Virus record (IMG/VR): IMGVR_UViG_3300028837_000819
Coordinates: 1 to 57,846 of that record
DNA length: 57,846 nt
Reading direction: 5' to 3' (one strand)
Source: a virus
Shown: piece by piece, positions 2 through 44,380 of the stretch
Position numbering within the stretch: position 1 is the first letter of the stretch
Layout of the letters: the number at the start of each line of letters is the position of its first letter
Program-made: the position numbers and the translations under genes
The notes under the pieces: generated by a model
Databases searched by the model: none
What the model was told of the DNA's origin: nothing
What the model saw: only the letters and a program-made list of their open reading frames with translations

Positions 2-958
2 GACCGGCAGACCAAGCAGAAGCTCGGTCCCAAGGGCAACGTGATCGAGGCGCTCCAGAAGTTCTCGATGAAGCCCTGTCCCATCTGCGGGTCCAAGGTA
101 CCTACGAACACCGGGTACTGCATGAAGTGCAAGAAGAAGACCCTGAAGACCGAGAGCGTTGACGAGGCCACGTTCGAGAAGGGTCGCCGTGTTGCGTGGA
201 CTGCCCCTAACGGTACCAAGATGCAGGGCGTGGTGGTCAACGACGTTGGCGGCAAGTATGACATCAAGGTCAGGGTGACGAACCCCACGCCCAAGAGGGG
301 CGACGAGGAAGTCCTTGTCAAGCGCGCGAAGCTCAAGACTGCGGGGCCTGCTGAGGACCTCGACGAGGACAAGACGAGCAAGGAGATGGAGGCGGGGCTC
401 AAGGGCTTCGTCGCCGACTACATCCTCTCCCGCAGCCACGGCAACGTCTCGCTTGCCAAGCAGATCAAGAAGAAGATCGACGCGATCATCAAGAAGAAGG
501 GGCTCAAGAAGGACAAGGTGTACGGGTACTTCGGCGACCCCGACGACCCGAAGCAGCGGGAGAAGGTTCGCAAGGCCGCGCGCAACCTCAAGGAGAGCGA
601 GCTTGCGGAGGTCGCGGGTGGCATGACCATGACGATGCAGGGCCGCGAGATCAAGGAGCCCACGTTCCTCAAGTCGATGGCGAATAAGGCGGGGGTCGAA
701 CTCAAGCGGGCTCTCCGTCTGTGGGGCAAGGCTCAGTTCGCCACCGAGGACCAGTACCCGGAGATCAAGAAGAAGTCCTCGCGGTACTACGAGATCGTGA
801 CGGGCATCTTCAAGAAGATGCAAGATGCTCAGGCTCAAGGAGGATGTGGACCTCAAAGCGTGGCTCGCGGGCTTGAGCAATGCGGACTGGCGGGGCATTA
901 TCGAGCAGGAGCCCCCGACCAACGGCGAGCCCCCCGCAAACGGCGAAGAGCCGGATGA
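2..958 (+). CDS. Cys-rich/Lys-rich phage protein, N-terminal part (open at left edge, frame-disrupted)
   Basis: The frame is open from the first bases, so the true start lies left of the window; a GTG at 41 is only the first possible internal start. A zinc-knuckle-like pair (CPIC, then CMKC) is encoded near 77-130. It is followed by a small beta domain (KGRRVAW...GVVVNDVGGKYDIKV) that could be SH3/Tudor-like, then Lys-rich helices. Plausible protein ends near 820 (GIFKKM). The remaining 45 codons to the TGA at 956-958 look like a shadow of another frame: Arg/Gly/Ala-rich and out of character. A 7-bp tandem duplication at 815-828 causes the shift. With one copy removed, the frame runs on into the 825-1430 ORF as one protein of at least 473 residues. 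Function not recognised; position upstream of head genes suggests a virion or head-assembly role. Confidence 0.6.
   Translation, partial: DRQTKQKLGPKGNVIEALQKFSMKPCPICGSKVPTNTGYCMKCKKKTLKTESVDEATFEKGRRVAWTAPNGTKMQGVVVNDVGGKYDIKVRVTNPTPKRGDEEVLVKRAKLKTAGPAEDLDEDKTSKEMEAGLKGFVADYILSRSHGNVSLAKQIKKKIDAIIKKKGLKKDKVYGYFGDPDDPKQREKVRKAARNLKESELAEVAGGMTMTMQGREIKEPTFLKSMANKAGVELKRALRLWGKAQFATEDQYPEIKKKSSRYYEIVTGIFKKMQDAQAQGGCGPQSVARGLEQCGLAGHYRAGAPDQRRAPRKRRRAG
815..828 (+). repeat. 7-bp tandem duplication that breaks the reading frame
   Basis: AAGATGC occurs twice in direct tandem (815-821, 822-828). Each copy carries an ATG (818 and 825), and the two ATGs are in different frames. Deleting one copy joins GIFKKM to LRLKEDVDLKAW in a single frame. 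There is no Shine-Dalgarno sequence at a usual distance before the ATG at 825. Confidence 0.85.
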
Positions 959-3548: not shown

Positions 3549-5828
3549 ATGGCGCTCTCCGCGCTGCTCGCCGATCCCACGGTCGAGGAACCTACGTACC
3601 TCGATGACTTCTTCCTCTCGGAGGCGGTCTGCCGCAGGATCGCCTCCTTGACGGAAGGCCGGGAGGACAAGCACGTCCTCAAGGCTGTCTTCCTCGCCGG
3701 AGCCGGAGGCGCTGGCAAGTCTGCCGTCGCCGACGCGATGTTCGCGGGCACCGGGATGAAGGTCATCAACGCTGACAAGCATCTCGAACGGTTCCTGAAG
3801 GAACTCAAGATACCGCCCGCCGAGGTGGGGCTGGAGTACGGGCTCTTCCGCAAGGCCCGCGATCTCATGAAGAAGGAGATGAGGCACTACGCACTCGCCC
3901 GCCTCGGGGTCATCGTTGACTCGACGGCGTGGGAGTACACGCGGATCGCGGAGCCCGTCAAGAAGTTCCGGCAACTCGGGTACGACGTCTTCATGGTCTT
4001 CGTGGACACGAGCCTTGAGACGGCGCTTGCCCGGAACAAGGCGCGGGCAGAGAAGGGCGGCCGGAAGGTCCCGGACAGTTTCGTCGAGGACGCGTGGCGC
4101 GGATCGCAGAAGAACAAGAAGAAGTTCGCCAAGCTCTTCGGCAAGAAGCGGTTCCTCATCGTCGATAATGACAAGGACGTGGAGAAGAAGACGTGGGCCA
4201 ACGTGATCGCCCCGAAGCTACGTTCCATCTCCAACAGGATTCTCAAGGCGGCCGTCAAGAACAAGAAGGGGATCGCGTGGCTGAAGAGCGGCAAGCGGGC
4301 GACGAAGGCGTCGCGTGCAGCCGAGTGGCCGAAGCCCAAGAAACCCAAGCCGTTCGTCTTCAAGGCCGATGCGCCCAAGGCCCCGCAGGGGAAGGTGAGC
4401 AAGAAGGGCGTCCCGATGGGGCGCAAGGGGCCGTCGAAGCTGAAGGCCGAGTTCAAGGGTAAGGGCAAGATGGACCTCGGCGTGATGTTTCCCGAGCTAT
4501 TCGGGAAGAGCTACATCCGCCCCAACGAGTCGATGGCCGAGTCCTTCATCAACGAGAAGGACCTCTCGAAGCTCAAGCCCAAGCTCGACGACCTGAAGCA
4601 CAACATCGAGGCGATGTACGAGCTTGAGTGGAAGTATTACCAGATCAAGAACAACGCGTGGACCGGCCGCCCGGAACGGTACGAGAACACGCTGAAGCTC
4701 TACGCCAAGGCGCTGAAGCAGATCATCCCCGCCACAGCGAAGCTCCTGCTTCCGACGTTCGATAAGTGGCTCTCGCAGCACGCGCTCACGAGCAAGAAGT
4801 CGTGGGGCAAGGCGCGCGTCGGTGAGGACCGCGAGATGTACGACGACGTGAAGGAGGCGTGGGGCGCGCTCCAAGGCGAGCTTGAGAGGTACGGCGGCCG
4901 GGATGCTACGTGGGCTCTCATTGACGTGGACCTCGATCAGACGCCGCGCTTCAAGGAACTGGTCGAGCTTCTCCGCAGTGAGGACGAACAATTCTGGAAG
5001 GACGAGCAGTACAGCGAGCACGGCGATGACGATGACGAGTGGGAGCCGTACCCGTACGAGGACGAGCAGTCGTACCTCGAATCGCTCGCGGGCATGGGGG
5101 ACTTCGGTGACGCGCTCGCGTCCTTCTCCATCGACGACGGCTGGAAGTGGGACATCATCGAGGAACTCTACGGCGAGCTTGTCTTCGATGCGTGGTTCGA
5201 TCACTGGAAGGCGCAGGGGATCGTGCAGACGCGGGCAATGGTCCAGAAGCGTCGCAACGATCTCAGCAAGCTCTCGCGTGGTGTGAAGAACGTCCCCAAG
5301 GGCGTGGTCCGGCTCAACCTCGCGCTCAACTGTGCGCACCAGACGGGCTCGATGCTCGACTACGTGGAGCAGGAGCACGAGGATGTCAACACCGCGTTCC
5401 TCAACAAGCTCTCCAACCGGGCGATCCCGCCGAAGTGGAAGAAGGAGATGCGGACCATCGGCGTGGACCTCAACCCGGCGAACGAGAAGAAGACGAGCAA
5501 CTGGCAGAAGTTCATGAAGGCGTGGAAGTCATACTCCGAGTCGCTGGACGAGGGCGTGTCCGCGATCTACGAAGGCAAGAAGGGTCCGATGTGGAAGACC
5601 CTTGAGAAGAACAAGGTGAAGCTCTCTGACGAGGAGCGCGCTGAGGTCATGAAGCGGAAGGCTGTCTGGCACCACGGCCCGAACGGAGAAGCGACGCCCG
5701 CCGTCTGGAAGGCTGTGGTCGACGGCGTGAAGTGGTACGTGACGAACACGCACCGGGCCTTCAACGTCCGGCCTACGCTCGCGGGCGCGATCAGCCGGTA
5801 CCACAAGTTCATCAAGAGCACGGCTTAG
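3549..5828 (+). CDS. P-loop kinase (zeta-toxin/polynucleotide-kinase-like) fused to a long unknown domain
   Basis: ATG 3549 follows GGAGGAGGG. The 759-residue product has a Walker A motif GAGGAGKS at about residues 51-58, then VINADKHLERFL, a helical lid and VIVDSTAWEY. FMVFVDTSLETALARNKAR follows, as in zeta-toxin/AAA_33 kinases that phosphorylate nucleotides, sugars or nucleic-acid ends. The kinase-like domain ends near residue 225. Behind it is a basic linker and about 450 residues of helical, Trp/Tyr-rich sequence with an Asp/Glu patch (about 495-515). Kinase-family membership is well supported by motif order; substrate and the C-terminal role are unknown. The fusion is much longer than stand-alone zeta toxins (usually under 300 residues), and no antitoxin gene is adjacent, so it may be a virion-carried enzyme. 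Confidence 0.7.
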   Translation: MALSALLADPTVEEPTYLDDFFLSEAVCRRIASLTEGREDKHVLKAVFLAGAGGAGKSAVADAMFAGTGMKVINADKHLERFLKELKIPPAEVGLEYGLFRKARDLMKKEMRHYALARLGVIVDSTAWEYTRIAEPVKKFRQLGYDVFMVFVDTSLETALARNKARAEKGGRKVPDSFVEDAWRGSQKNKKKFAKLFGKKRFLIVDNDKDVEKKTWANVIAPKLRSISNRILKAAVKNKKGIAWLKSGKRATKASRAAEWPKPKKPKPFVFKADAPKAPQGKVSKKGVPMGRKGPSKLKAEFKGKGKMDLGVMFPELFGKSYIRPNESMAESFINEKDLSKLKPKLDDLKHNIEAMYELEWKYYQIKNNAWTGRPERYENTLKLYAKALKQIIPATAKLLLPTFDKWLSQHALTSKKSWGKARVGEDREMYDDVKEAWGALQGELERYGGRDATWALIDVDLDQTPRFKELVELLRSEDEQFWKDEQYSEHGDDDDEWEPYPYEDEQSYLESLAGMGDFGDALASFSIDDGWKWDIIEELYGELVFDAWFDHWKAQGIVQTRAMVQKRRNDLSKLSRGVKNVPKGVVRLNLALNCAHQTGSMLDYVEQEHEDVNTAFLNKLSNRAIPPKWKKEMRTIGVDLNPANEKKTSNWQKFMKAWKSYSESLDEGVSAIYEGKKGPMWKTLEKNKVKLSDEERAEVMKRKAVWHHGPNGEATPAVWKAVVDGVKWYVTNTHRAFNVRPTLAGAISRYHKFIKSTA

Positions 5829-5837: not shown

Positions 5838-8780
5838 ATGGCAACGGGGAAGTACAAGTTCGCTGACCTGAAGGATGTCGAAGAGGCGATGAACGGCCTC
5901 GACTCCATCGTCTCAGGCGCGGGTGTGATACAGGGTGCGGTCAACACGTTCGCGGACCTGCCGAATCCCATTGGCCTCAAGGACGGAACTATCTACATCG
6001 TTCGGCTGGACACGCCGGGCCACGACAACGGCTTCTATGTGGTGCAGTCGGACACGTGGCAGTTCTTCGATGCGCTCAACTTCCAAGACTCCGACGAGGT
6101 CCCCAACAAGTCGATCATACCGGGTGCGAGCGTGACCGCTGCGCTCGATCACCTCGGCGGGTACTTCATGTCGGACTTCTCTACGCCACAGGCGGCCATT
6201 GACGCGGCCATCGTGTCGGGACAGAAGTTCCTCTTCGTCGATCAGCTATTCTCGCTCTCCGTCGCGCTGGACCTCAAGAGTGAGGCGGACCTCAGCCTCA
6301 TGGGGCTCGGGTCGGGGACGGGCTTCCTCGTTGCGAACGTGGCAGCCACAGGAGCCATCGAGAACGTCGGGGATCGTGCGAAGCTCAGTGACATCTACAT
6401 CGAGGTCCAGAACTGCACCACCACGGCCAAGATCATCGACGCGGACGCGGCTGCAGGCGTGACGCTGGACAACGTGCTCATCAGGATGAAGACCGGCACG
6501 CAGGCGGCCCGCGCCTTCTCGCTCTTCGACTGCGACGACTCCACCGTCAACCTCTGCCGGGTCATTGTCGAGGATGCTGGCACTGGCAAGCTCGATTACG
6601 GCATCTATGCTGAAGGCTGCGAGAACATCATCGTCCAGAGCAACCGCACGCTCAAGGGGACGGTCGGGATCAGGGTCGATGACAGCGAGCGGGCCTCGGT
6701 CGAGAACAACTACGTCCTGTATCCGTGGGGCAACGCGTACGAGATCGTTGACTTCAACCACGGGCAGGCCCTCAGCAACCACGCGTACTCGGGCAACACG
6801 GCGGGCACGTACGGCTTCTTCCTTCAGAACCTCGAAAGCCTCCAGTTTGGCAAGAATGACGTGCAGGATTGGGACGCCGGGGCCAACATGACCGGCGCGT
6901 ACTTTGACAACGTGGACAAGGGCGTCTTCGAGGGGAACCTCTTCCGGGACCTCTCGCTTGACGGGATGTACTTCACGGACAGCGCCAGTCTCACGTGCCG
7001 GAACAACTTCGTGCACGTGTGCGGGCGCGACGGCATTTACTTCAACACTAACCAGTACGCGAACATCTCGGGGAACTACATCTATTTCCCCGTGCGCGAC
7101 GGGTACGGCTTCACGTCCTGCGCTCAGACGATCCTCAATGACAACCACATCTTCGGACCGGGCGGCCGAAACGGCGTCCTGTGCTCGGCCGGGGCCATGT
7201 TCCAGATTGCCAACAACCACCTGTACAACGCCTTCGGGACCGGACCGGATATCGAGTGTGTCGATTGCACGACCGTCGTCATCGAGGGCAACATCTGTGG
7301 CGGGTCCAGTGTGCAGAAGGTCTACCTACATGGGGCCACCACGCGGGACATCCTCGTCGACGACAACCAGTGCACGTTCGTTCGATACGATGGGATCGTC
7401 GTTGAGGACTGCGAGAAGGTACAGGTCAAAGACAACACCATGCGCGTCGGGAGCGATGTTGACTTCGACGCCATCAAGGTGACCGAGGGCAATGACATCC
7501 ACGTCGAGGGCAACCAGATAACTCAGTGGGACGCTTCGACGGGCATCCGTGGCATCTCGTGGACCACCTCCGTGGCGGACAGCAGCAAGGGCACCATCTC
7601 TCGGAACAGGATCACGGGCCTCACGGGCGTTGGCATCTACCTCCACGGTGCACCCCCGGCCGGACCGAAGTATCACGAGCACGTCGACGTGGAGAACAAC
7701 AGGATCGTCAGTCCGGGGAGCCACGGCATCCACGCCGCGCACATCCGGTACTGCAACATCAACGGGAATAAGATCAGCAAGGGTCAGGGGCAGGATACCT
7801 ACGGCATCCTGATCGAGTCTGACGTGGGTCAGTCGAACAACCTGTGCTCCGTCTCTCGCAACAAGATCACGGAATGGAATGCGCAGACGGGGATGGGCTG
7901 CATCAAGATCGCCGGAAACAATAATACCGAGTTCGAGATCGACGAGAACAAGGCGTACCAGTGCACCGGCCACGCGATGGAGATCAAGTGCAGCGGGTTC
8001 AGCCTCATTGGCAACCGGGCCGAGGCAGCCTTCGGCGCGGCTCTACTTGCCAACGGGCTTGTCAACGGCAGCATCACTGGCGGGTCGTACGAGGGCGGTG
8101 ACGCCACGACCGGGGGTGCTATCGTCTTCGACGGTGGCGGATCAGTCACGCTCACTGGAGCCTTTATCAGTGGCGGTTCCTATCGCGCGGTGTGGGTGAA
8201 GGACTACTGTGAGAACATCAGCGTCACGGACAACCACATCAAGACCGGTGGGAACCTCGCGGCTGACCGCGCTGTCATCGACGTGGAGGGCGAGGTCGAG
8301 CGTATCCTCATTGGCGACAACGTCTTCGAGCACTCGAACCATCACCCGATCCGCGTCAAGACCGGAACCACTGGCGATCCCGACGCGGTGACGGTCAAGG
8401 GGAACATCTGCGTCGGCTGCTCTGTCGGCGGCATCAAGTGCCAGAACGTGGGCCATCTCAAGGTCGAGGGGAACACGCTCGGTGACAAGGCGTACAACGC
8501 CGGATACCCGGCCATCGACGTGGACAACTGCGATCAGGCGTCGCTCCAGCACAACACGATCTATGACTGGAACGCCGGGGCCGGAGATCACGGCATCTAC
8601 GTCCAGAACTCGACCAAGGTCCTGCAGGCGGACAACACGATCCAGAATGTGGGAGGTGACGCGGCGAAGTGGGAAGATACGGTCACGTACTCGATGAGTC
8701 GTGACAACATGATGATCGGCGAAACCGTCGATCTCGGTTCTGGCACCGGTAACGATGCGAACGGTGACCGGATCGTATAG
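5838..8780 (+). CDS. Right-handed beta-helix tail spike/fibre-like protein
   Basis: ATG 5838 with AGGGG upstream. The 980-residue product has an N-terminal region (1-110) with a typical phage-fibre look (NTFADLPNPIGLKDGTIYIV). A very long run of about 22-residue rungs follows, rich in N-x-I/N-x-V turns (SGNYIYF, GNICGG, DDNQCTF, NNRIV, GNKISKG), the hallmark of parallel beta-helix (PbH1, pectate-lyase-like) folds. Such proteins bind or cleave surface polysaccharide. No lytic catalytic site can be assigned by eye. Its place next to the ParB-methyltransferase genes, far from the tail genes, is unusual for a receptor-binding protein. Confidence 0.75.
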   Translation: MATGKYKFADLKDVEEAMNGLDSIVSGAGVIQGAVNTFADLPNPIGLKDGTIYIVRLDTPGHDNGFYVVQSDTWQFFDALNFQDSDEVPNKSIIPGASVTAALDHLGGYFMSDFSTPQAAIDAAIVSGQKFLFVDQLFSLSVALDLKSEADLSLMGLGSGTGFLVANVAATGAIENVGDRAKLSDIYIEVQNCTTTAKIIDADAAAGVTLDNVLIRMKTGTQAARAFSLFDCDDSTVNLCRVIVEDAGTGKLDYGIYAEGCENIIVQSNRTLKGTVGIRVDDSERASVENNYVLYPWGNAYEIVDFNHGQALSNHAYSGNTAGTYGFFLQNLESLQFGKNDVQDWDAGANMTGAYFDNVDKGVFEGNLFRDLSLDGMYFTDSASLTCRNNFVHVCGRDGIYFNTNQYANISGNYIYFPVRDGYGFTSCAQTILNDNHIFGPGGRNGVLCSAGAMFQIANNHLYNAFGTGPDIECVDCTTVVIEGNICGGSSVQKVYLHGATTRDILVDDNQCTFVRYDGIVVEDCEKVQVKDNTMRVGSDVDFDAIKVTEGNDIHVEGNQITQWDASTGIRGISWTTSVADSSKGTISRNRITGLTGVGIYLHGAPPAGPKYHEHVDVENNRIVSPGSHGIHAAHIRYCNINGNKISKGQGQDTYGILIESDVGQSNNLCSVSRNKITEWNAQTGMGCIKIAGNNNTEFEIDENKAYQCTGHAMEIKCSGFSLIGNRAEAAFGAALLANGLVNGSITGGSYEGGDATTGGAIVFDGGGSVTLTGAFISGGSYRAVWVKDYCENISVTDNHIKTGGNLAADRAVIDVEGEVERILIGDNVFEHSNHHPIRVKTGTTGDPDAVTVKGNICVGCSVGGIKCQNVGHLKVEGNTLGDKAYNAGYPAIDVDNCDQASLQHNTIYDWNAGAGDHGIYVQNSTKVLQADNTIQNVGGDAAKWEDTVTYSMSRDNMMIGETVDLGSGTGNDANGDRIV

Positions 8781-8781
8781 C

Positions 8782-8799
8782 CCCTTGCGAGCCCAAGGG
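8782..8799 (+). promoter_or_regulatory. Hairpin overlapping the ribosome site of the first ParB-methyltransferase gene
   Basis: CCCTTG (8782-8787) pairs with CAAGGG (8794-8799) around a 6-nt loop. The 3' arm is part of the AAGGGAGG site for GTG 8809, so the stem could hide it. Confidence 0.4.
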
Positions 8800-8808
8800 A
8801 GGTCAGGC

Positions 8809-10086
8809 GTGGCGACGAAGGCGAAGACGAAGAAGAAGCCCACGAAGAAGAAGCGGGCCAAGGGGTCCAACGGCCATTACGCGCGCGCGAATGTCGTGAG
8901 GCTCAAGGTCGCGGACCTCGAAGACGCTCCCTACAACGCGAGGACGATCACGCAGAAAGCTCTCAAGGGACTCTTCAAGAGCCTCGAAGAGTTCGGCCTC
9001 GTGCATCTCCCCGTGGTCAACAAGCGCAAGAAGAAGTACCGGATCATCGGCGGCCACCAGCGGGTCCTTCTTCTCAGGCGAGAGGGGGTCGAGCATGTAT
9101 GGTGCATCGTGGTGGAGGTCCCCGACGACGTTGAGCGAAAGGCCAACTTCACGCTCAATAACCGAGCTATCCAAGGGGAATTCGTTCCCGAACTCACCCG
9201 AGACCTACTGGACCGGATTCGGGGTCTCGTCGATAACGCAGACGCGAAAGACTCGCCCTTCAAGCTCCTCAACTTCGACGAGCTAGTGAAGCGGGTCTCC
9301 CGGAACATGAACGTGCTCTCCGGCGAGAACGGACAGCCGATCATCCTGAACGAGGGCCGCGTCGACGAGGACGCCGAGCCGCAGATGACGAAGACCAAGG
9401 CCGACTCTCAGGTCGGGACGATCTACGAACTCGGGGATCACCGCATTCACTGTGGGGGTCTCAAGGGTGTCGGGAGTCTCAAGGCGTTCGGTGTCGCAGA
9501 CGACGTGGTGGACATGGCCTTCACCCGGATCGCTGATCCCAAGACGCTGAGCGAGGGGTACCTCGACTCGTATCTCGGGACGATACTGGAGGGCACGAGG
9601 GGGGCCGTTTACATCGTCACGACGACGCGGAACCTCGCGCAGATTCAGCAGCGCTTCGAGGCTCTCCACGGGCACTGGTCAACTACGCTCATGTGGGTCT
9701 ATCCCGAGGCGAGCCCGTCGGTCGACGAGCGGTACCGGGACGTGCTCATCCCCGTCATCTATGGCTGGCCGGAGGGGGCGGATCGCCAGTTCTATGGGGA
9801 GAAGCGGATCAGCAACGTCTTCACCCTGAAGCGGGCACCGAAGAACAAGCTGCCGGTGGAGATCGCCATCAAGGCGTACGCGCTGTCCTCGTGCGACGGG
9901 GACAACGTGCTCGATGTGGACGTGGGGGACGGCTCAAGTGTCATCGCCGCGAGCATGACCCCGCGTCATCTGATTGGCTACGTACGAACGGCCCACGCCT
10001 GTGACAAGGTGCGGAGGAGATGGGCCGAATTCATTCATGGGCCGAAGTGCAACTGGAAAGCGCTTACACCGAAGCGTTCCGGATGA
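8809..10086 (+). CDS. ParB-like/DNA methyltransferase fusion with degenerate catalytic motifs
   Basis: GTG 8809 is chosen because AAGGGAGG (8795-8802) lies 6 nt upstream; an ATG at 8755 would overlap the spike gene without a site. The 425-residue product has a basic N-terminus, a ParB/Srx-like domain (about 25-130; IIGGHQR corresponds to the ParB box) and a C-terminal region that aligns by eye with the intact fusion at 10323. The expected DPPY (motif IV) reads TRIA at about residues 239-242, and the expected DPFVGSGTT reads DVDVGDGSS at about 369-377. The tail RRRWAEFIHG matches RRRWAESVHG of the paralogue. Methylation is therefore unlikely; a DNA-binding, decoy or regulatory role is inference. 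Confidence 0.75.
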   Translation: MATKAKTKKKPTKKKRAKGSNGHYARANVVRLKVADLEDAPYNARTITQKALKGLFKSLEEFGLVHLPVVNKRKKKYRIIGGHQRVLLLRREGVEHVWCIVVEVPDDVERKANFTLNNRAIQGEFVPELTRDLLDRIRGLVDNADAKDSPFKLLNFDELVKRVSRNMNVLSGENGQPIILNEGRVDEDAEPQMTKTKADSQVGTIYELGDHRIHCGGLKGVGSLKAFGVADDVVDMAFTRIADPKTLSEGYLDSYLGTILEGTRGAVYIVTTTRNLAQIQQRFEALHGHWSTTLMWVYPEASPSVDERYRDVLIPVIYGWPEGADRQFYGEKRISNVFTLKRAPKNKLPVEIAIKAYALSSCDGDNVLDVDVGDGSSVIAASMTPRHLIGYVRTAHACDKVRRRWAEFIHGPKCNWKALTPKRSG

Positions 10087-10322: not shown

Positions 10323-11555
10323 ATGCCGATTGAGATGACGAAGCCGACGATCATGCGGCTCAAGCTGAGCACGCTTGAGTTCTCGAACTACAACCCGAGG
10401 CAGATCAGCGAGACCGCGATGCAGGGTCTCCGCGAGGCGCTGGCCGAGTTGGGTCTCATGGACATGCCTCTCGTCAACGTCGCCGACGGGAAGAAGAGGA
10501 TCATCAGCGGCCACATGCGCGCGCGAGCGCTTATGGAGGAGGGGTACACGGAGGCGGACTGCCTCGTCGTGGAGTTCGACGACCTGAAGGAGCAGATGGC
10601 GAACATCACGATGAACAACCCGGCCGTTCAGGGGAAGTGGGACCTGAAGGACATCGTGCCGACGCTCGATCAGATCACGGCGGACCTACCGAAGCCGGAC
10701 CACATGCTGCTGGAGACCTTGCTCCGGGACATCAGGAAGCAGGTCTCGCGCAACCCGGACCTGAGACCGTCGGGCAAGAAGTTCGCGGGCGGCACGCCCA
10801 AGTCGAGCGCCGGAGTGATCTACGGCCTCGGCCCGCACCGGCTGTACTGCGGAGCCATGCAGGACAAGGACGCGTTCCCCTTCATCTTCGGGAAGAAGCG
10901 AGCGACGGCGTGCGTCACCGATCCTCCGTACAACGTCCAGTACGAGCAGGCGGGCAAGGACGGCGAGATCGAGAATGACAACATGAGCCCGGCTGAGTTC
11001 CGGTCCTTCATGGAGGACGTGGTGTCCGTGATCCGGGCGTACGTCTCCGGCGTCACCTACATGTTCATGTCGAGCAAGTACCTGCCCGTCGTGCAGGACG
11101 TGTGGGAGTATCACGACGGGATCGTGGATCGCTGGATGGCGTGGGTGAAGACGAACCCGAGCGTCAGCAGCTTCCGGACGGTGGACTTCCACAGCCAGTT
11201 CGAGTGGATCATGTTCGGGTACAAGGCCGGGGCGAGTGTGCCGGAGGTCGAGACGGCGAGGACGAACCTCCTCATGTTCCCGAAGCCAGCAGTCAACAAG
11301 CTCCACCCGACGCAGAAGCCGCTCGAAGTGGTCGCGCCTCTGGTCGAGGACGCCACCGACGAGGGCGAGATCGTCTTCGATCCCTTTGTCGGGAGTGGGA
11401 CTACGATCATCGTCTGCGAGGTCCTGAAGCGCGTGTGCTTCGCCTGTGAGCTTGATCCCCGGCACGTGGACACCGCTCGACGGCGTTGGGCCGAGAGCGT
11501 GCACGGCGAGAATTGTGATTGGGAAGACTTGACTAAGGCGGTTTCGGCTATATGA
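10323..11555 (+). CDS. ParB-like domain fused to N4/N6 DNA methyltransferase (apparently intact)
   Basis: ATG 10323 after AGAGGTG. The 410-residue product has a ParB/Srx-like N-terminal domain (about 1-120; LEFSNYNPRQIS, IISGHMRARALMEEG) and a beta-class methyltransferase domain. DPPY is at about residues 200-203 and DPFVGSGTT at about 355-363, in the order IV then I expected for N6_N4_Mtase (PF01555). Between them is a target-recognition-like region. Such fusions are common in phages and prophages and probably methylate adenine-N6 or cytosine-N4 to evade restriction; no restriction nuclease is adjacent. It is a paralogue of the degenerate gene at 8809. The last codons carry a promoter-like sequence. 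Confidence 0.85.
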   Translation: MPIEMTKPTIMRLKLSTLEFSNYNPRQISETAMQGLREALAELGLMDMPLVNVADGKKRIISGHMRARALMEEGYTEADCLVVEFDDLKEQMANITMNNPAVQGKWDLKDIVPTLDQITADLPKPDHMLLETLLRDIRKQVSRNPDLRPSGKKFAGGTPKSSAGVIYGLGPHRLYCGAMQDKDAFPFIFGKKRATACVTDPPYNVQYEQAGKDGEIENDNMSPAEFRSFMEDVVSVIRAYVSGVTYMFMSSKYLPVVQDVWEYHDGIVDRWMAWVKTNPSVSSFRTVDFHSQFEWIMFGYKAGASVPEVETARTNLLMFPKPAVNKLHPTQKPLEVVAPLVEDATDEGEIVFDPFVGSGTTIIVCEVLKRVCFACELDPRHVDTARRRWAESVHGENCDWEDLTKAVSAI

Positions 11556-11963: not shown

Positions 11964-14900
11964 ATGCCCTTGACGTACAAGGTCCCTAAGAACGTCCGCG
12001 CAGCGGCCGAGAATGCCCTCAGAGCGCACGCAAAGCGTCCGGGCGGCTCGGAAGCCGTCTCGGGGGCCGGTATCGCGACAGCGCTCAAGGAAGGCACCGT
12101 GGGGCTCGATCTGGTGGCCTCTCTGCACCGGTTCTTCACGATCAACGAGCGCCTATACCGTGCAGCCATACGGACCCTCCAAGATGACCTCACCGCGCCC
12201 GTGATCCTGTCGTGGAGACTACATGGGGACACGGGCGGCAAGGTATGGGCTCGCCGGGTCTTCACGCAGGCGGTGAAGGAGGGACTCCTCGAAGAGGATC
12301 AGTACGCCGCCCTCTTCCGCCGCGAGCCCGAGCAGATTTACGACCTCTTCGCCGCCGACGCGTGGCGATGGGAGTACGGCCTCGATCCACGGAGCGCCGC
12401 TCGCTTCGTCGAGGAGTACGCTCACCAGACCGGCAACCTTCTGGAGATCAACCGGGCCTTCGGCGACGGAGCAAAGGCCGTCGGCAACGCCGTCTATCGC
12501 CGGTACCACACGCCCAACCCGTTCGAGGAAGTGTACAAGGCGATGGTCGTGGAGGACGTGGACTACAAGCTCGCGGCCGAGCTTGATCTCCATGACATGT
12601 GCCGGAGCGCGAACATCCCGCTGAGCGAATCGCTCTTCCCGCAGATCGCGAACAAGTCCGACCTCACCGTGGCGAAGACGATATGGGGCCAGTTCGTCGC
12701 GTACTTCATCCTTGCCGTCGAGGCTCCGGACCTTCTCAAGCCGGTGCACAAGGGCTCGAAGATTCCGCCGCTCCTGATGCAGACTCCGAAGAAGCACTTC
12801 GCGTACCCGGACCCGATCAACACCTACATCCGTTACTTCCATCCCGATGGCGCGAAATACGTGGACCCCAACAAGGACAAGAAGTTTGTGGGCCTTGAGG
12901 TCGAAGCCGAGAACCTCATGAAGCGCGCGTTCTATGGGAAGAAGATCACCCGAGTGCAGGCTCTCAAGTTCCTCGGCCGAGCCCGACGCTGGACCGCGAA
13001 GAACAAGATGGCCGGGAGCCTCTTCCACATCTTCAACGCTGACTGGAAGAAGGCCAACTGGCAGCACATCCTTGACAACATCCCGCTCGAAGCCGACGTC
13101 CAGCCTGCCTTCGCGGCGTTCGTCGCGGGCAACCCGATGCCTGCCGAGGGTGTGGACCTACAACAGACGCTCGCCAAGAAAGCCACGAAGGTGGGGGTCA
13201 TCAAGGCGCTGTCCATTCAGTATGGCGACATGCCGACGGCCATCGAGCCCATGAAGCTCCGTGACACGGACTCCGGCAAGTGGGCCAAGGGAGAGAAGAC
13301 TCCGCTCGGAGTTTACAGCGTTCTCCTGAGTGCGGGGACGGATCACAAGTTCATCATGCTCGGCGCATACAAGGTGCCAAGCCAGAACGAGCCGATCCTC
13401 GTGTATCACCCGGAGTTCGACGAGGCGAATCTCAAGCTCACAGGCGACGCCAAGCTCCTCGACGCGCTCAAGAAGAAGAGCGTCATCATCGTGCAGGGTC
13501 ACAAGGACATGCCGGGCACTATCTACGGAGCGCCCGAGAAGCCGAAGAAAGAGGATCAGGCACCGGGCGCGGCCGAAGACGAGGACGCGCTCCTCGCCTT
13601 CATCGCCAGCGAGCTTGAGTTGCCAGTCGACGAGGTGAAGGCGATCTCCCTCACGCTCACTGAGTCGTGGGCCACGTTCGGATACGAGTATCCGGAGTGG
13701 ATGTTCATCGAGACGACGGACCTTGATTACAAGAAGGAGGGCACGGAGTTCTCGCTGAAGCTCCTCGGCGCGTTCGAGACGGCCGTCCAGATGGTCATTG
13801 CCTACCGGGATGATGACGGCGATCTCGGGTGGACCGACGATGACGAGTTCTCGCAGGCGATCACGAAGCACTATGTCCGCCCGCAGGGGTGGGAGCCCAA
13901 CGTTCCCGAGGACCCGGCCTTCCCCGATTGGGTTCCCAAAGAGCTTGGCAAGATGTTCGGAGTCGGGGCGGCCAACGTCAGTCAGGTACCGCTCAGCAGT
14001 ACCAAGTTTGCCAAGGCGTGCAAGATAGAGAGCCTTGAGTGCAAGTCGTACTCGCAGTGGGTGTACTGCGGGCCGACCTACCAACTCATTGGTGCGGCGC
14101 AGATCGGCGGCGTCGTCCACATCGTCTTTCAGGACATCATTGACCCGAACGACCTCATAGGTCCGATGGACTCGATGGCGTCGCAGTCGGTGTACGACGG
14201 GACCGCGTACCCGTCGGACAAGAAGCAAGCGCTTCCCGATGACCTCCACAAGTTCACGGACGAAGAATACTCGGCGATCAAGAATCAGTACAACCTTGAG
14301 GAGCCGGACGTTCTCTCTGTCCCTCTCGAAACCACGGATAGCTACGACACCGCGAAGGAGAACGGGTGGGGCTTCCGTCGCGGGACTGTGTGGGGGGTGA
14401 AGACAGCGGGCGGCGCGTGGCTCTATTACAAGGTTTCCGGAGCCTTCAAGAAAGGCTTCGAGGTCATGTTCCTCCTGTACAAGGGTGAGGATCAGAACAG
14501 CACCACCGATATCGCGTTCTTCTACGATTCCGTCTTCAAGGGTGGCCTCAACAACGGTGACATCATCCCGGCTGCGCAGGTCCCCGTTACGTCCCCGCCC
14601 AAGTTCGTCGTCGGGGACGTGCTCGATTTCCCGTCGGCCCGGTGGGCGGTGTTGGGGTTCCAGTCCCAACAGTATCTCCTTCAGCCTCTCAACGTCAGCT
14701 ACGATATCAAGGCCACGACCACGGGCTTTCAGGACGTTGTGGAGGGGGCGGCCGAGAAGGTCGGCCACATCGACGAGCCGCTCGCTGGCGCGCTCCTCAC
14801 CGCGCACATCGTTCTCCCAAGCGGTTGGGAGCACATGCCGAAGGCCGAGTTCGTCGAGGAGACTGGACTCGCGCTCGGGACCGCCGTCAACATGGGCGGG

Positions 14901-17900
14901 AGCAATTATTGGATCAGCGGCGGCGTGAAGAACACGGCTGGCGAAACATACGTGCTCGGAACACGGCCCGCGACGTCAAAGAATTCCGGCTGGTCTGATA
15001 TCGCGTACATCGAGCCGCTCCTCTCGCCTGCTAGTGACTACATCACCGAGTACGAGTCCACGTACGAGCCCACCGATCCGAAGCCGGAGCCCGGTGCGGA
15101 GGACGCGCTCGACGCGGTGGACGACGAGGCTGGCAACGCTGCGATGAGCGGTACGAATCCTGCCTTCACCTTCCTCAAGAAGAAGGATTGGACTCCGGCG
15201 GTCAAGAGTGAGAGCCCTGAGTTCCAGTGGGACCTCGGAGCGAAGCTCCAATACGGTCCGGAGAAGACGCGGACGATCATCGGGTACGGCTTCGCCGACG
15301 AGGCTGCTATCTACGTCATGGTCACCGAGAAGGGCAACGTCAACTTCAAGTCTGTCAAGGTGGGGAATCAGCAGTATGGCCCCGTGATCGAGTACGTCCA
15401 GAACATCGTTGACAACCTTCACCCGAAGCCGAGTGACGCGGGGAAGCAGAAGTTCCCGAAGCTCAATTACGGGCTCTCGTCGCACGCCAAGAAGCTCGCG
15501 CAGAAGCACGATCTGATCTATATCTCGTCGCCTGCCAATGCTCCCTTCTACGTGGGCTCCAAGATTTACGATAGCGTCGAAGGTAAGAGCGGCTGGCTCG
15601 TCGCGTGGACTGGTGACCCCGAGGAGCACGAGTTCAACGGGATCATCATGTACAAGGACGGCACGTGGTCCGAGCAGTCCTTCAACGCGATCCTCAACAA
15701 CCTGAGCATCAAGTACGCGAACACCAACGTGATCGACGAGACTGAGGGTGACATCACCTTTGGCAAGGGTTCTGAGAACGTCTCCATGACGGTGAACTAC
15801 CCCGGAGGCTCGCTGCCGACCAAGCCGGTCGAGGGGTGGGATGACCCAACGCCGGTTCAGCAGCCCGCCTTCCCGGAGCTTCCTTCAGGCAAGCACATCT
15901 CGGCTGGCGTCGTTGCCGTCTTCCCGGCAACTTCGACGGGCGTCAACAGCGGACCCACCATCGCGGTGCTCCCGAAGGCGACGTTTGTCATGACGCATCC
16001 GATGAACGAGTTCGCCGGGTACTCGATCACGTTCCCGAAGGGCACCGTCGAGCCGGGCGAGTCCATCGAGAAGGCTGCCGTTCGAGAGTGCTTCGAGGAG
16101 ACGGGTCTCACCATGAAGCTCGTCGCGTTCCTCGGGGACTACAAGGGCCAGTCCTCGTTGACGCGGATGTTCATGGGGTACGTGACCGGCGGCGATCCGA
16201 AGGCGGCCGGGAAGGAAACCGACGCCGTCTCCCTGAAGCCATTCGACTTCGCTGCGCCGCCCTCGGAGCAGAAGTGGTGGAGTCAGCTTCAGGATCGTGA
16301 CAAGAAGATCGTGGACGATGCCATCGACTGGATGAACACCAACGGGCTCCCCAATGAGGTGAAGATCAGCGAGGCGGCAGAGGACAGCGCCGTTACCGGA
16401 CCACAGGACACGGAAGGCTCGAACGGACCGGATACCTACGACCCGAAGGCTGAGCACGAGTACAAGCAGGAGTTCCCCAAGCAACTCATCAGCACGGCGG
16501 ACTATAAGGTCACCGTCGATACGAAGAAGTGGTGCGGCTCCTTCTTCGGCACGGTGTATTACGAGCAGTGGTGGTACGGGAAGCAACTGGAATGGATCAA
16601 CTTGGGCTATCCGCCCGTCGGCGCTCTCATCAAAGCTCCGGATGCTCAGGTCCCGGTCTCGCGCGTGCGCGCGTACGTGGACACGAAGGAGAAGGATGAG
16701 GGGGGCGAATACTTCGGGACCTACATCGTCGTCGAGTACGAGGACAAGACGACTCATTGGGCGCTCCTCATCAACAGCGGTCAGGCTGGAGCAACGCCTT
16801 ACAAGCCCGAAGTCTTCCAGCCCGTCGTCTCGAAAACGTCTGTCAAGCCGACGGCGATCACGGCGGACACGACCAAGGACGATGTGTGGAAGACGCTCCT
16901 CTTCAAGGCCCCGTTCCCCGTCAGTCAGGAAATGCAGGACGCGCTCAAGAAGACGGCGGCGGCGATCCCCTCGATACCGGCCACCTTCTCGTGCGCGAAG
17001 AACATGACGAAGGGACCTCCCTACGGAGAGATCGTCGTCTATCCGGCGCTCGATTCGGACGTGCCGTACCTCGTGGCCGGGTACGTCGAGTGGAAAGACA
17101 CGGAGGGAAACGATTACAGCTTCGCGCTCCTTGTCGGCGGCGGCAAGGTACAGGTCATTCCGTCGCTCAACTTCATAACCGACGAGTGGTCCATAGACGC
17201 GAACGCGAAAGCGGCACAGAGCCCGGCCGATCCGTTCTTCACACACCCGGACCCCAACATCAACGCGGTCATTCAGCAAATCTATGCCAACGGCGGGGAC
17301 ACCAAGGCCGTCGGCACGACGGTCGGTCAGTTCAAGGATCAGTGGATGAAGGAGGCGAAGCTCCCTGCCTACGCCGTCGTCACCAAGCCTCTCCTTCAGG
17401 ACGTGGCGTCGCTCTTCGTTCCCGGTGCGGCCACGCAGGCACAGTACGACGCCATTGTCGGTTGCCTCAAAGCCCGGATGAAGGCCACGCACAAGAACAA
17501 GGGCAAGAAGGGCACGAGCGCCGGGACCGCTGTCGCCACGCCGCAGATCACGGCCGCCGCTCCGGTTCTTCCCGAGGTCAACGTTCCGAAGAAGGTCCTG
17601 AAAGCGAAGGGACTCAACGTCGAGTCCGCCGTCTATCAGAACTACGTCAATACCCCGCAGCCGATGCTCTTCAGCGATCTCGGTCAGACCGTTGGTGGTG
17701 GCTCGAAGCCGAACAAGCTCCTTGCCGGTCCCGGCGGGACGAAGTGGTTCTTCAAGATGGGTCCGGGGAAGGAGACCTTCCGGCCGTACGTGGACCGTGC
17801 GGCGTATCTGATCTCCGACCTCGTGAAGGATAACAACATCCCCGTCGGCGTCATGGAGTTCGAGGGCGGCGTCGGGTCCTACCAGCCGTACGCCGAGGAC

Positions 17901-18968
17901 GCGACGAATCCGCCGAGCGATCCCACCACGCTGTCGCCGGAGAACATGGCAGAGGTCCTCGCTCAGCACATGGTCGATATGTTTATGGGGGACCACGACG
18001 GCCACGTCGGCAACTGGCTGCGGATCGGCACACAGCTTCGCGCCGTTGACCGGGGGCAGGCGTTCAAGTTCCTCTTCCAGAACAAGAATGATAGCTACGA
18101 TCCCACGTGGCACGCCAAGGGGAACTTCGGTGAGGGGTACGCCAAGAAGCTCCTCATCGAGTGGGGCAACAACAACGTCGATCTTCCCAAGGAGTCTCTG
18201 CAGGGCGCGCGCGACGCCATCGCCAAGGTGCAGGCCATCGTGGACCAGCAGCTTGAGGCGATCCTCACACCGGTCTTCGACGCTCGTGACACGTCACCAG
18301 CTGAGCGGAAGAAGATTCTGAAGAAGCTGTACACGAGGAGGGATAACTACCTCAAGGACTGGACGGCCGTCATGAAGGGCTTGAAGAAGGGCTTCAAGTG
18401 GCCGTCGGTCGGTGTCACGATCCCGAAGATTACCCCGCTCAAGTCCTCTCCGAAGACGCAGGAGTTCAAGGCGCGCGAGGAGAAGACGATCAAGGAGGCC
18501 GTCGCGGCGGGCTGGCAGGGCAAGGCTCTCCAGATCGACAAGGATGCCATCGAGAATCAGGAGGTCATGGTTCGGCGGGTGACCTACGAAGAGAAGCCGG
18601 GCATGAAGATACCCGCGACGCTGATCCAGTTCCGTGTTGCTCGCGAAGCCGGACTGAAGCTCGTGCAGACGCTCGCCCCGAAGGCGAAGGTCACCATCGA
18701 GGAGGGCGGTACGGCATTCGGTCCGCAGCGCCTCAAGGCCGACGTGGTGAAGAATTATTACGAGGCGATCCTTGCCGCGATCAAGAGCGTCAATCATCAC
18801 CTCTCCAAGGAGAAGAACCTAGAGATCAACATGGATCAACATGCAGACGGTTGGCAATGCGCTCAACCTATCGCCGGAATTGGAGAAGATTTTCAGCCAG
18901 ACCAAGGACCCGGCTGGCACCTACAAAGCAACTGGCGAACCGAACGACGCCGTGAACGCGATGGCTGA
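11964..18968 (+). CDS. Giant polyprotein with Nudix and kinase-like domains
   Basis: 2334 codons from ATG 11964 (weak ribosome site), 22 nt after the nuclease gene. The N-terminal 500 residues are helical with no recognised fold. From about 600 to 1250 several short beta modules recur loosely (VGDVLDFPSARWAVLGF, LGTAVNMGGSNYWISGG, LGAKLQYGPEKTRTIIGYG, VGSKIYDSVEGKSGWLVAW). A Nudix domain lies at about 1312-1470 with a complete Nudix box (G, 5, E, 7, RE, CF, EE, T, G) starting near 1359. A HipA/PI-kinase-like domain lies at about 1895-2100 with GDHDGHVGNWL near 2005 and AVDRGQAF near 2025. The last 45 residues look like a wrong-frame tail caused by the 10-bp duplication at 18824. It is probably packaged and injected, by analogy with other phage polyproteins; that is inference. 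Confidence 0.7.
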   Translation: MPLTYKVPKNVRAAAENALRAHAKRPGGSEAVSGAGIATALKEGTVGLDLVASLHRFFTINERLYRAAIRTLQDDLTAPVILSWRLHGDTGGKVWARRVFTQAVKEGLLEEDQYAALFRREPEQIYDLFAADAWRWEYGLDPRSAARFVEEYAHQTGNLLEINRAFGDGAKAVGNAVYRRYHTPNPFEEVYKAMVVEDVDYKLAAELDLHDMCRSANIPLSESLFPQIANKSDLTVAKTIWGQFVAYFILAVEAPDLLKPVHKGSKIPPLLMQTPKKHFAYPDPINTYIRYFHPDGAKYVDPNKDKKFVGLEVEAENLMKRAFYGKKITRVQALKFLGRARRWTAKNKMAGSLFHIFNADWKKANWQHILDNIPLEADVQPAFAAFVAGNPMPAEGVDLQQTLAKKATKVGVIKALSIQYGDMPTAIEPMKLRDTDSGKWAKGEKTPLGVYSVLLSAGTDHKFIMLGAYKVPSQNEPILVYHPEFDEANLKLTGDAKLLDALKKKSVIIVQGHKDMPGTIYGAPEKPKKEDQAPGAAEDEDALLAFIASELELPVDEVKAISLTLTESWATFGYEYPEWMFIETTDLDYKKEGTEFSLKLLGAFETAVQMVIAYRDDDGDLGWTDDDEFSQAITKHYVRPQGWEPNVPEDPAFPDWVPKELGKMFGVGAANVSQVPLSSTKFAKACKIESLECKSYSQWVYCGPTYQLIGAAQIGGVVHIVFQDIIDPNDLIGPMDSMASQSVYDGTAYPSDKKQALPDDLHKFTDEEYSAIKNQYNLEEPDVLSVPLETTDSYDTAKENGWGFRRGTVWGVKTAGGAWLYYKVSGAFKKGFEVMFLLYKGEDQNSTTDIAFFYDSVFKGGLNNGDIIPAAQVPVTSPPKFVVGDVLDFPSARWAVLGFQSQQYLLQPLNVSYDIKATTTGFQDVVEGAAEKVGHIDEPLAGALLTAHIVLPSGWEHMPKAEFVEETGLALGTAVNMGGSNYWISGGVKNTAGETYVLGTRPATSKNSGWSDIAYIEPLLSPASDYITEYESTYEPTDPKPEPGAEDALDAVDDEAGNAAMSGTNPAFTFLKKKDWTPAVKSESPEFQWDLGAKLQYGPEKTRTIIGYGFADEAAIYVMVTEKGNVNFKSVKVGNQQYGPVIEYVQNIVDNLHPKPSDAGKQKFPKLNYGLSSHAKKLAQKHDLIYISSPANAPFYVGSKIYDSVEGKSGWLVAWTGDPEEHEFNGIIMYKDGTWSEQSFNAILNNLSIKYANTNVIDETEGDITFGKGSENVSMTVNYPGGSLPTKPVEGWDDPTPVQQPAFPELPSGKHISAGVVAVFPATSTGVNSGPTIAVLPKATFVMTHPMNEFAGYSITFPKGTVEPGESIEKAAVRECFEETGLTMKLVAFLGDYKGQSSLTRMFMGYVTGGDPKAAGKETDAVSLKPFDFAAPPSEQKWWSQLQDRDKKIVDDAIDWMNTNGLPNEVKISEAAEDSAVTGPQDTEGSNGPDTYDPKAEHEYKQEFPKQLISTADYKVTVDTKKWCGSFFGTVYYEQWWYGKQLEWINLGYPPVGALIKAPDAQVPVSRVRAYVDTKEKDEGGEYFGTYIVVEYEDKTTHWALLINSGQAGATPYKPEVFQPVVSKTSVKPTAITADTTKDDVWKTLLFKAPFPVSQEMQDALKKTAAAIPSIPATFSCAKNMTKGPPYGEIVVYPALDSDVPYLVAGYVEWKDTEGNDYSFALLVGGGKVQVIPSLNFITDEWSIDANAKAAQSPADPFFTHPDPNINAVIQQIYANGGDTKAVGTTVGQFKDQWMKEAKLPAYAVVTKPLLQDVASLFVPGAATQAQYDAIVGCLKARMKATHKNKGKKGTSAGTAVATPQITAAAPVLPEVNVPKKVLKAKGLNVESAVYQNYVNTPQPMLFSDLGQTVGGGSKPNKLLAGPGGTKWFFKMGPGKETFRPYVDRAAYLISDLVKDNNIPVGVMEFEGGVGSYQPYAEDATNPPSDPTTLSPENMAEVLAQHMVDMFMGDHDGHVGNWLRIGTQLRAVDRGQAFKFLFQNKNDSYDPTWHAKGNFGEGYAKKLLIEWGNNNVDLPKESLQGARDAIAKVQAIVDQQLEAILTPVFDARDTSPAERKKILKKLYTRRDNYLKDWTAVMKGLKKGFKWPSVGVTIPKITPLKSSPKTQEFKAREEKTIKEAVAAGWQGKALQIDKDAIENQEVMVRRVTYEEKPGMKIPATLIQFRVAREAGLKLVQTLAPKAKVTIEEGGTAFGPQRLKADVVKNYYEAILAAIKSVNHHLSKEKNLEINMDQHADGWQCAQPIAGIGEDFQPDQGPGWHLQSNWRTERRRERDG
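18824..18843 (+). repeat. 10-bp tandem duplication that breaks the polyprotein frame
   Basis: GATCAACATG is repeated exactly in tandem (18824-18833, 18834-18843). Each copy ends in an ATG; the first is in the polyprotein frame, the second starts the next ORF. Removing one copy joins NLEINM to QTVGNALNLSPELEK and gives one ORF from 11964 to 20292 (2772 codons). The nearest AAGGAG (18808-18813) is far too distant to serve ATG 18841. Confidence 0.85.
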
Positions 18969-20292
18969 CCAGTACATCCAGTACCTCGCGGCGATCAAGG
19001 TCTTCGTGGACAGCAAGGAGGAGTATCTCGGAAAGCACTCGCCTCACTTCGCGCCGTTCCTGTGGCAGGAGCCCACCGAGGAAGAGGAGGAGCCCACCGA
19101 GATTCCGCAGATCGAGATCGAGCTTCGCAAGCAGGGAGCCTCGTTGCCGCAGTCGACGGCCGAGCCGGGTGAGGTTGTCATCACCGGTTTCAACAAGCCT
19201 GTCTACCGTACGTCGGAGCAGCCTCAGTTCGTCATCAAGGACCCGATCACGCAGGCGACGATCTTTTACAACCCGCCGGGTGGCGTGCAGGGTCTCAAGT
19301 CCGGCGTCGAGGGCCACAAGTCCATCGCGTGGGCGGTCATGAAGGGTGAGCCGTCCACTGGCGTCGTGGCGCACCTCATGAAGCTCTTCGAGTCGGCGGC
19401 CGGTCTGAAGATGCGGCCTGCCACGAAGAAGGACGACGAGGTTCTCTACTGGTCAAAGCAGGCGGCTCTCCTCCAGAGCGGCGGCAAGGTTCACCCGAAA
19501 GCAGACGGCACCGCCGAAGTTGATCCGGCATACGCGCAGGCGATGCAGCAGTACCGGATGGGCGATGACGATGCGGCGCTGAAGGGGCTGAAGGATTTCA
19601 CGGCGAAGCAGCTTGGCGTCCCCGTCGGCCAGCTTACGAAGCAGCCGGGGTACAGCTTGAAGGGTGACTACACACGGGGGGCGGGCTGGCGCAGGCACGA
19701 GCGAATCGGATGGACCGCCTCGAAGCTCCAGAGCTTCATGGGGAAGGGCGCGACTGTCGCCCACACGGTAACCGGTGGCTCGGGCAACATGCTCAACTTC
19801 TTCCAGATGGCGATGAAGAACGGCTCGCTTCTGTCGAACAATCAGAAGCCCTTCTATGGAGTCAGTGTCAACGGATTCTCGACGGGTTCGGACTTCGACG
19901 CGGGTGGCACGCAGGGTCTCTTCTGCGTCTTCCGGAAGTTCGGGTCGGCCGGTGCGAACGTGCTGTACTTCGATATCGCTGTCTGTCTCAGAACGGATGT
20001 CTACGTCGTGGGTTCTGGTGACGCTTTCGGGAACGTCCACACCGAGCGGTACACCACACCGGAGCAGTGGAAGGGGAAGGTCGGTACGGGCCAGATCGGT
20101 GCAAGCTCGCACTTCCAGATCAACGTCCGTCATGACATTGACATTCAGAAATATCTTCTCTCGGCGGTGTGCTCGTCGGCCAGTTCTCGCGATCAGATCA
20201 GGAAGATTTGCAAAGACATGGGCTGGACGAAGTTCGCGCGCGGGCGCAGTATCGAACAGGCCATTGTCACCTCGAAGGAGGCAAAGTTCTGA
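18841..20292 (+). CDS. C-terminal part of the giant polyprotein (possible ADP-ribosyltransferase-like domain)
   Basis: 483 codons, most likely the natural continuation of the 11964 polyprotein after the 10-bp duplication; its own ATG has no ribosome site at a useful distance and overlaps the upstream ORF by 128 nt. There is a Glu-rich linker at about residues 78-90, a helical region around 160-270, and a C-terminal domain from about 280. That domain contains HTVTGGSGNMLNFFQMAMK, GSLLSNNQKPFYGV, NGFSTGSDFDAGGTQGLFC and VFRK. The order (H-x-T, L..G.L.S, G.S..D..GG, VF.R) resembles a domain seen in some phage polyproteins and, loosely, ADP-ribosyltransferase-like folds. That reading is weak. With the Nudix domain upstream, a link to ADP-ribose chemistry would be coherent but unproven. 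Confidence 0.6.
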   Translation: MQTVGNALNLSPELEKIFSQTKDPAGTYKATGEPNDAVNAMADQYIQYLAAIKVFVDSKEEYLGKHSPHFAPFLWQEPTEEEEEPTEIPQIEIELRKQGASLPQSTAEPGEVVITGFNKPVYRTSEQPQFVIKDPITQATIFYNPPGGVQGLKSGVEGHKSIAWAVMKGEPSTGVVAHLMKLFESAAGLKMRPATKKDDEVLYWSKQAALLQSGGKVHPKADGTAEVDPAYAQAMQQYRMGDDDAALKGLKDFTAKQLGVPVGQLTKQPGYSLKGDYTRGAGWRRHERIGWTASKLQSFMGKGATVAHTVTGGSGNMLNFFQMAMKNGSLLSNNQKPFYGVSVNGFSTGSDFDAGGTQGLFCVFRKFGSAGANVLYFDIAVCLRTDVYVVGSGDAFGNVHTERYTTPEQWKGKVGTGQIGASSHFQINVRHDIDIQKYLLSAVCSSASSRDQIRKICKDMGWTKFARGRSIEQAIVTSKEAKF

Positions 20293-21436: not shown

Positions 21437-21498
21437 GTTGGATTGTGGCTCTGCCAGTCTGAGCCGCTGCCGGTCCACAGGAAGAGGAGGTCGCCACC

Positions 21499-21933
21499 AT
21501 GGGCGAGGTGAGGGAAAGCCTGCCCCGCGTGTACCAGTTCGACATCGGACTGGACCCGACGCAGCCAGCGGGGTCCGAGGACCTCGTTGGCGTCGTGAAG
21601 CGGAACGATCAGGTCTCGGCGGCGGGCTACGGCCTCGCTCCTCTCTTCGGGCTCGTCGAGAATCACGGGCCAGTCGATCTCGTCTTCGAGGTCGAGGACT
21701 CCGACGACAACGGGCAGGTCGATCCGTACGCCGTCGAGAACATGCGTATCGGTGGCGCGTCGGTTGCCAACGTCACGGTACCTCCCGGTGGCAAGGTCGT
21801 CTTCATTCTTGAGGGCGTCACGAAGCGGTGGCTCCGCTTCAACGCCACCCCCGCGCTGACAGCCGGTGGCCGCCTCACCGTCGCCTACTGGTTCGGCGAT
21901 CTTGAGACAAGGCTCGCGGTGGGAACGCCGTAA
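21499..21933 (+). CDS. Small virion-type protein, short paralogue
   Basis: ATG 21499 after GAGGAGG. 144 residues: MGEVRESLPRVYQFDIGLD, SEDLVGVVKRNDQV, GLVENHGPVDLVFEVEDSDD, MRIGGASVANVTVPPGG, YWFGDLETRLAVGTP. It matches the next gene nearly throughout, except that the next gene has about 112 extra residues at the NGQVD/PY junction here. Beta-rich, probably a virion surface or adaptor protein. No named family is recognised. Confidence 0.7.
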   Translation: MGEVRESLPRVYQFDIGLDPTQPAGSEDLVGVVKRNDQVSAAGYGLAPLFGLVENHGPVDLVFEVEDSDDNGQVDPYAVENMRIGGASVANVTVPPGGKVVFILEGVTKRWLRFNATPALTAGGRLTVAYWFGDLETRLAVGTP

Positions 21934-21949
21934 CGAGGAGATCGCGGTC

Positions 21950-40784: not shown

Positions 40785-40808
40785 CCTTGCTGTCAGGAGG
40801 GTAAAGCC

Positions 40809-41015
40809 GTGTCGAACGTGATGATTGCAAACAAGCTCCCGCAGGCCGTCGAGGTCTCGCTGCAGAGCCCCGGTGGTGGCGTCGAGGGCGTCAAGCTGGA
40901 GCCCTACGAGGCTATCCCGAACGACCGCAGGCCGGAGCATGTGGCCGAGTCCAGCGTGACGGGTTACACGCGGGGACTCGCGGAGCGGGGTTACATCCGA
41001 ATCCGCAAGGGCTAA
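40809..41015 (+). CDS. Small unknown protein before the sheath
   Basis: GTG 40809 after CAGGAGGG. 68 residues: MSNVMIANKLPQAVEVSLQS, ESSVTGYTRGLAERGYIRIRKG. It lies 58 nt before the sheath start. Small proteins here in myoviruses are often unannotated; no function can be read. Confidence 0.55.
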   Translation: MSNVMIANKLPQAVEVSLQSPGGGVEGVKLEPYEAIPNDRRPEHVAESSVTGYTRGLAERGYIRIRKG

Positions 41016-41072
41016 TTCCTCGGTGCTCGCGTGGATGCTTTACTCGCGGGCTGATACGAAGGAGTGACCGTC

Positions 41073-43733: not shown

Positions 43734-43773
43734 CCGAAGAGTTTCAAGCGGACTCTGACAGGAGGATAGGACC

Positions 43774-44307: not shown

Positions 44308-44321
44308 AATCGGCCGGTGAT

Positions 44322-44338
44322 ACCAACAATTTGTTGGT
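44322..44338. repeat. Palindrome copy 4 (ACCAACAATTTGTTGGT)
   Basis: Longest copy: 17 bp, core 44324-44336, between the tube stop (44307) and the chaperone start (44381). Same orientation as copies 1 and 2. Confidence 0.8.
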
Positions 44339-44355
44339 GTCACTGGAAAGTTGAC

Positions 44356-44374
44356 CTCCTTTCAGCGGAAGGAG
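44356..44374 (+). promoter_or_regulatory. Hairpin sequestering the chaperone ribosome site
   Basis: CTCCTT (44356-44361) pairs with AAGGAG (44369-44374) around a 7-nt loop. AAGGAG is the Shine-Dalgarno site of ATG 44381 (6 nt), so folding would hide it. Confidence 0.5.
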
Positions 44375-44380
44375 CATGTT

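Follow-up and report, generated by a model that had tools for sequence, protein, structure and literature searches.

Apparently frameshifted genes are known to arise from assembly errors (Cooley and Wright 2024, PMC11017572); in such spurious cases a small indel in a single assembly interrupts a gene that is whole in relatives. Other systems carry real interruptions within a coding sequence. In gene 60 of phage T4 the ribosome skips 50 nucleotides flanked by matched codons, and this bypassing requires a stop codon, stem-loops and a nascent-peptide signal (PMC5009743). The mitochondrial genome of Magnusiomyces capitatus holds 81 bypass elements, short frame-breaking inserts relative to related genomes, which are tied to an unused A-site codon (PMC5009743). 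Slipped-strand duplication leaves a perfect tandem copy of a short unit and may break the frame by +1.

Here we analysed the 57,846 nucleotides of the viral record IMGVR_UViG_3300028837_000819 (IMG/VR), in the following called the window, which contains frame-breaking tandem duplications at positions 815-828 and 18824-18843. These resemble the spurious frameshifted genes in that one assembly has a small indel within a gene whole in relatives, but each indel is an exact tandem duplication, of 7 or 10 bp, for which we infer a technical origin. With T4 gene 60 they share the matched codons on both sides of the bases to be skipped; the gap, however, would be 4 or 7 nt instead of 50, and a take-off stop codon, consistent stem-loops and conservation are lacking. 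As in M. capitatus, multiple short inserts break frames in one genome in comparison to its relatives, whereas the window has two inserts only, next to ordinary codons and on a phage contig. A perfect short-unit copy and a frame broken by +1 are also what slipped-strand duplication leaves, but here there are two in one contig, neither of which is seen elsewhere and both of which are putative as real DNA.

Results

The heptamer AAGATGC is present twice in perfect tandem at 815-828 (plus strand), exactly as claimed in the first-pass annotation and verified by position in the sequence, and the duplication shifts the frame by +1. It lies where ORF 2-958, which is open at the left end of the contig, overlaps ORF 825-1430 by 134 nt, the latter starting with the ATG of the second copy. 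A codon log-odds scan trained on the large genes of the window placed the single best frame changepoint at 819-834, and the frame path calculated for the whole window switches at 819/820, in agreement with the earlier statement that the two halves are in different frames. The 45 residues that end the upstream ORF (821-958 including the stop codon) had been described as out of character. Indeed, these last 45 codons of ORF 2-958 score −0.72 log-odds per codon, while the same stretch read in the other frame scores +0.65, and this tail is unlike the homologues and matches none of them. According to the codon scans and the tail score, a single coding sequence therefore shifts frame at the 815-828 repeat. 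The 7-bp duplication is not above chance in itself, since three tandem repeats of this size were observed in the window and 5.3 are expected under an order-3 Markov model; it is meaningful only by its coincidence with the frame switch.

No Shine-Dalgarno sequence precedes ATG825, and for this codon the claim of a missing ribosome site holds true. The sequence AAGGAGG at 837-843 is located inside ORF 825-1430, 2 nt ahead of GTG846. The first copy of the duplicated unit also forms the 3′ arm of a 7-bp inverted repeat (GCATCTT-CAAG-AAGATGC, 804-821), which is possibly a chance occurrence: 43 stems of 7 bp are found in the window, this one included.

The upstream half of the broken gene (2-820), whose 5′ end lies off the contig, comprises a zinc-ribbon-like CPIC..CMKC motif, a WTAPNG module and an EPT..LWGKAQ..YYxxVTxxFKxM module. 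The downstream half (825-1430, other frame) contains an acidic linker and a HiPIP-like Cys motif. With Cys motifs in both halves, the earlier description as a Cys-rich protein is apt in a loose sense only. The downstream motif (KKCKTCSFWLGGQCSQVKGKISPDGTCDL, 1089-1229) resembles the HiPIP PioC with an E value of 0.11. The adjoining linker consists of poly-Asp, and its DNA resembles prohead core genes of Aeromonas phages, a low-complexity match. PHROGs and Pfam returned no confident family for the protein broken at 815, and protein searches against phage records gave no match with either half.

Relatives of the phage were obtained with major-capsid and tail-sheath queries. A search of viral and genome contigs for near-identical copies covering the 815 site gave nothing usable, and close copies of the sequence on either side of it were absent from the viral contigs. 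A relative of 143 kb (G003) encodes a modular ORF of 2081 aa that has two modules of the upstream half, with 62% identity over the WTAPNG…GDEEVLV module and 52% over EPT..LWGKAQ..YPxIKK..SRYYxxVTxxFKxM. For the …YYxxVTxxFKxM module this ORF is the one clear homologue, and weaker ones occur in jumbo phages. After the module, G003 continues with FKNM-LGLGKEE, while the weak relatives continue with FKNM-IGMEE (a 63-aa protein of Vibrio phage GR7B) and VKRR-LGLSK (Xanthomonas phages). This consensus continuation, [L/I]G[L/M], fits the frame of the window past the repeat (M-LRLKED) and not the present tail (FKKM-QDAQAQ). Over six residues the BLOSUM62 sums versus G003, GR7B and the Xanthomonas phages are +7/+6/+6 for M-LRLKED and −5/−5/−7 for M-QDAQAQ, and 1.3% of random six-residue stretches attain the former total. 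The homologues thus provide good but short evidence that points to a single frame at 815. A comparison of related phages at this point had been proposed; it gave a module that continues in the other frame in G003, but no close copy that covers the site. The fused architecture is not reproduced one-to-one in G003, because the HiPIP-like Cys motif matches its next ORF and not the one with the FKxM module.

The 2081-aa ORF of G003 (L020:12586-18831, minus strand) has 16 [ILVM]DE motifs between its modules, compared to 2.4 expected on shuffling. The motifs typically read E-[S/G/D]-[I/L/V]-D-E, and two such sites are present in the 815 gene of the window. They resemble the (I/L)-x-E sites at which T4-type prohead proteases cut, and by this likeness the G003 ORF may be a processed inner-head polyprotein.

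A further duplication, unreported by the first-pass annotation, is located at 18824-18843 (plus strand). Here GATCAACATG is present in two perfect 10-bp tandem copies that split a gene of 2.8 kaa, and in the same frame scan the repeat coincides with the point where the coding frame switches from ORF 11964-18968 to ORF 18841-20292. The upstream part (11964-18833) includes a NUDIX domain (Pfam) and is followed by an out-of-frame tail of 44 aa (18834-18968), which scores as non-coding. The downstream part (18841-20292) encodes 483 aa in the other frame; its predicted structure (mean pLDDT 69) gave no significant fold match. All seven relatives covering the joint have one open frame there, and five relatives have a complete single ORF (2459-2930 aa) that runs colinear with the two ORFs of the window. 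Homology of the relatives to ORF 11964-18968 ends at residues 2281-2291, just short of the tail. One relative (L009) aligns gap-free to the one-copy state, …NINM-NTIAAMQAIAPEL versus …EINM-QTVGNALNLSPEL. Near-identical copies covering 18824-18843 were searched for, and none was found in the collections searched. No Shine-Dalgarno sequence is found at working distance from either ATG825 or ATG 18841, the nearest one before the latter being AAGGAG, about 28 nt away.

Several other features were observed in the surroundings of this gene. ORFs 8755-10086 and 10323-11555 code for two paralogous ParB-like/DNA methyltransferase fusions (phrog_498) side by side, the former having no methylase domain recognised by Pfam, and the 759-aa product of 3549-5828 carries a zeta-toxin/AAA kinase domain at its N terminus (Pfam). 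At 21484-22738, in the region that separates the large gene from the head protease, cross-matches with contig L002 revealed diverged internal repeats (about 190 bp, 71-75% identity).

As a control, non-triplet tandem repeats of at least 7 bp were collected from the records of ten relatives. The coding frame was scored on each side of every repeat, and a frame switch was counted if it equalled the size of the repeat. None of 60 repeats in the relatives was located at such a switch, compared to two of four in the window. The other two repeats of the window (22315 and 52000) are unchanged in independent contigs of near-identical phages (L002 and L012). L012, which originates from another metagenome, differs from the window by one mismatch and no gap over 12,986 bp (39496-52481), and this near-identity indicates that indels are not common in the phage in general. 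This contig (IMGVR_UViG_3300008517_000097) is the same phage in another sample. Duplications of 9 bp at 1768 and 37205 were left aside, as they are of triplet length and do not break the frame. ORFs were also compared pairwise between genomes (about 700 kb) to detect those that are whole in one but split in the other, and this revealed no other split at a tandem repeat on a coding strand. Programmed splits common to the whole group were considered as well and rejected after testing the relatives over about 700 kb.

In both repeats each copy includes an in-frame ATG (818-820 and 825-827; 18831-18833 and 18841-18843), and each downstream ORF gains an ATG at the joint. Any tandem duplication of a unit with an in-frame codon necessarily gives such a matched pair. 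For random coding positions the chance that both units hold an in-frame ATG is about 0.031 × 0.048 = 0.0015, a value calculated post hoc. The presence of ATG in both units is not explained by an artefact; as it was spotted post hoc, it is of limited weight.

Discussion

The extra AAGATGC is probably an insertion without function that is confined to this record and most likely arose as an artefact of assembly or sequencing. The earlier claim that an additional copy of the 7-bp unit breaks one gene gains support from codon usage and from the homologues, which run on in the other frame. The extra copy would make one real gene appear as two overlapping ORFs, and the 10-bp insertion at 18824-18843 would be of the same kind and split another gene of the contig. 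A plausible route would be that two partial contigs with a few bases in common at their ends were joined and these bases were left uncollapsed. An artefact fits best since both breaks are specific to the record, the copies are perfect tandem copies, the tails are uncorrected and no Shine-Dalgarno sequence is found at working distance. A gene intact in the relatives and broken only here was found at 18824-18843; at 815 this is seen by the continuation of the module only. We found no paper describing exactly this artefact in the literature. The first-pass annotation had listed an assembly error, a natural mutation, phase-variable slippage and ribosome hopping as causes. The broken gene itself stands; among the causes, a second frame-breaking duplication that is absent from the relatives favours one specific to this record, artefact or recent mutation, over hopping or phase variation.

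Recent, real slipped-strand duplications in the sampled phage population, which inactivated or split two genes and are followed by no programmed repair, are possible but clearly less likely than an artefact. A tandem duplication is the classic product of slippage, the unit at 815 belongs to a 7-bp inverted repeat as its 3′ arm, and both breaks are close to module edges or length-variable linkers. Natural mutation keeps this standing because an in-frame ATG lies in both units, which would be expected if a duplication were tolerated only when it provides a start; the ATG of the second copy may then permit weak independent expression of the second half, that is gene fission. However, neither this ATG at 825 nor that at 18841 is preceded by a Shine-Dalgarno sequence, both tails of about 45 aa persist uncorrected, and two independent frame-breaking duplications would have arisen in a stretch of 58 kb, with none in the relatives. 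Loss of the second gene is probably costly, since every relative has it unbroken at this point. Taken together, a technical cause is most likely, rather than recent mutation. It is improbable that the duplications are real and tolerated in the sense that ATG-bearing duplications serve as tolerated split points, by a hop from the first to the second ATG or by initiation at the second.

Programmed bypassing, in which peptidyl-tRNA-Met would move from the copy-1 ATG onto that of copy 2 over gaps of 4 nt (815) and 7 nt (18824) and yield one protein per ORF pair, seems extremely unlikely. Take-off and landing codons match at both sites, and at 815 the A-site codon CAA is rare in the phage (2.7 per 1000) and the 7-bp stem overlaps the take-off codon. 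But neither take-off codon is followed by a stop codon, the A-site codon at 18834 is GAT (21.6 per 1000, not rare), and the RNA structure is weak at 815 (z −1.25, best subwindow −2.36) and about z 0 at 18824. Furthermore, the relatives are without such repeats, and seven of them have not retained the gap at the second site. It is the lack of a take-off stop, a shared slow codon, consistent RNA structure and conservation that speaks against hopping. Just as little credit is given to phase-variable slippage, by which the copy number of the unit would toggle one fused protein on and off. A non-triplet tandem repeat inside a gene would suit such a switch, but known contingency loci have long repeat arrays, and here the unit of 7 or 10 bp is present in two copies only. 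No relative has a repeat or an array at the second site, where a conserved gene close to head genes would be an unlikely switch. Two truly separate, overlapping genes that share a repeat by chance, an explanation for the 815 site only, are very unlikely as well. The arrangement in G003, where the HiPIP-like motif sits in the next ORF, apart from that with the FKxM module, would agree with it; in the window, nevertheless, the natural continuation of FKxM and the HiPIP-like motif share one open frame, the upstream tail is without coding character and ATG825 without a Shine-Dalgarno sequence.

If the insertions are artefacts, as we favour, they would matter for annotation only, with two phage genes wrongly split in the record. 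A search for non-triplet tandem duplications that coincide with a switch of frame in codon usage, checked versus relatives, would then offer a cheap error screen for viral contigs. If the duplications are real, the ATG in both would make them a testable case of gene fission rescued by a start codon, or of short hopping.
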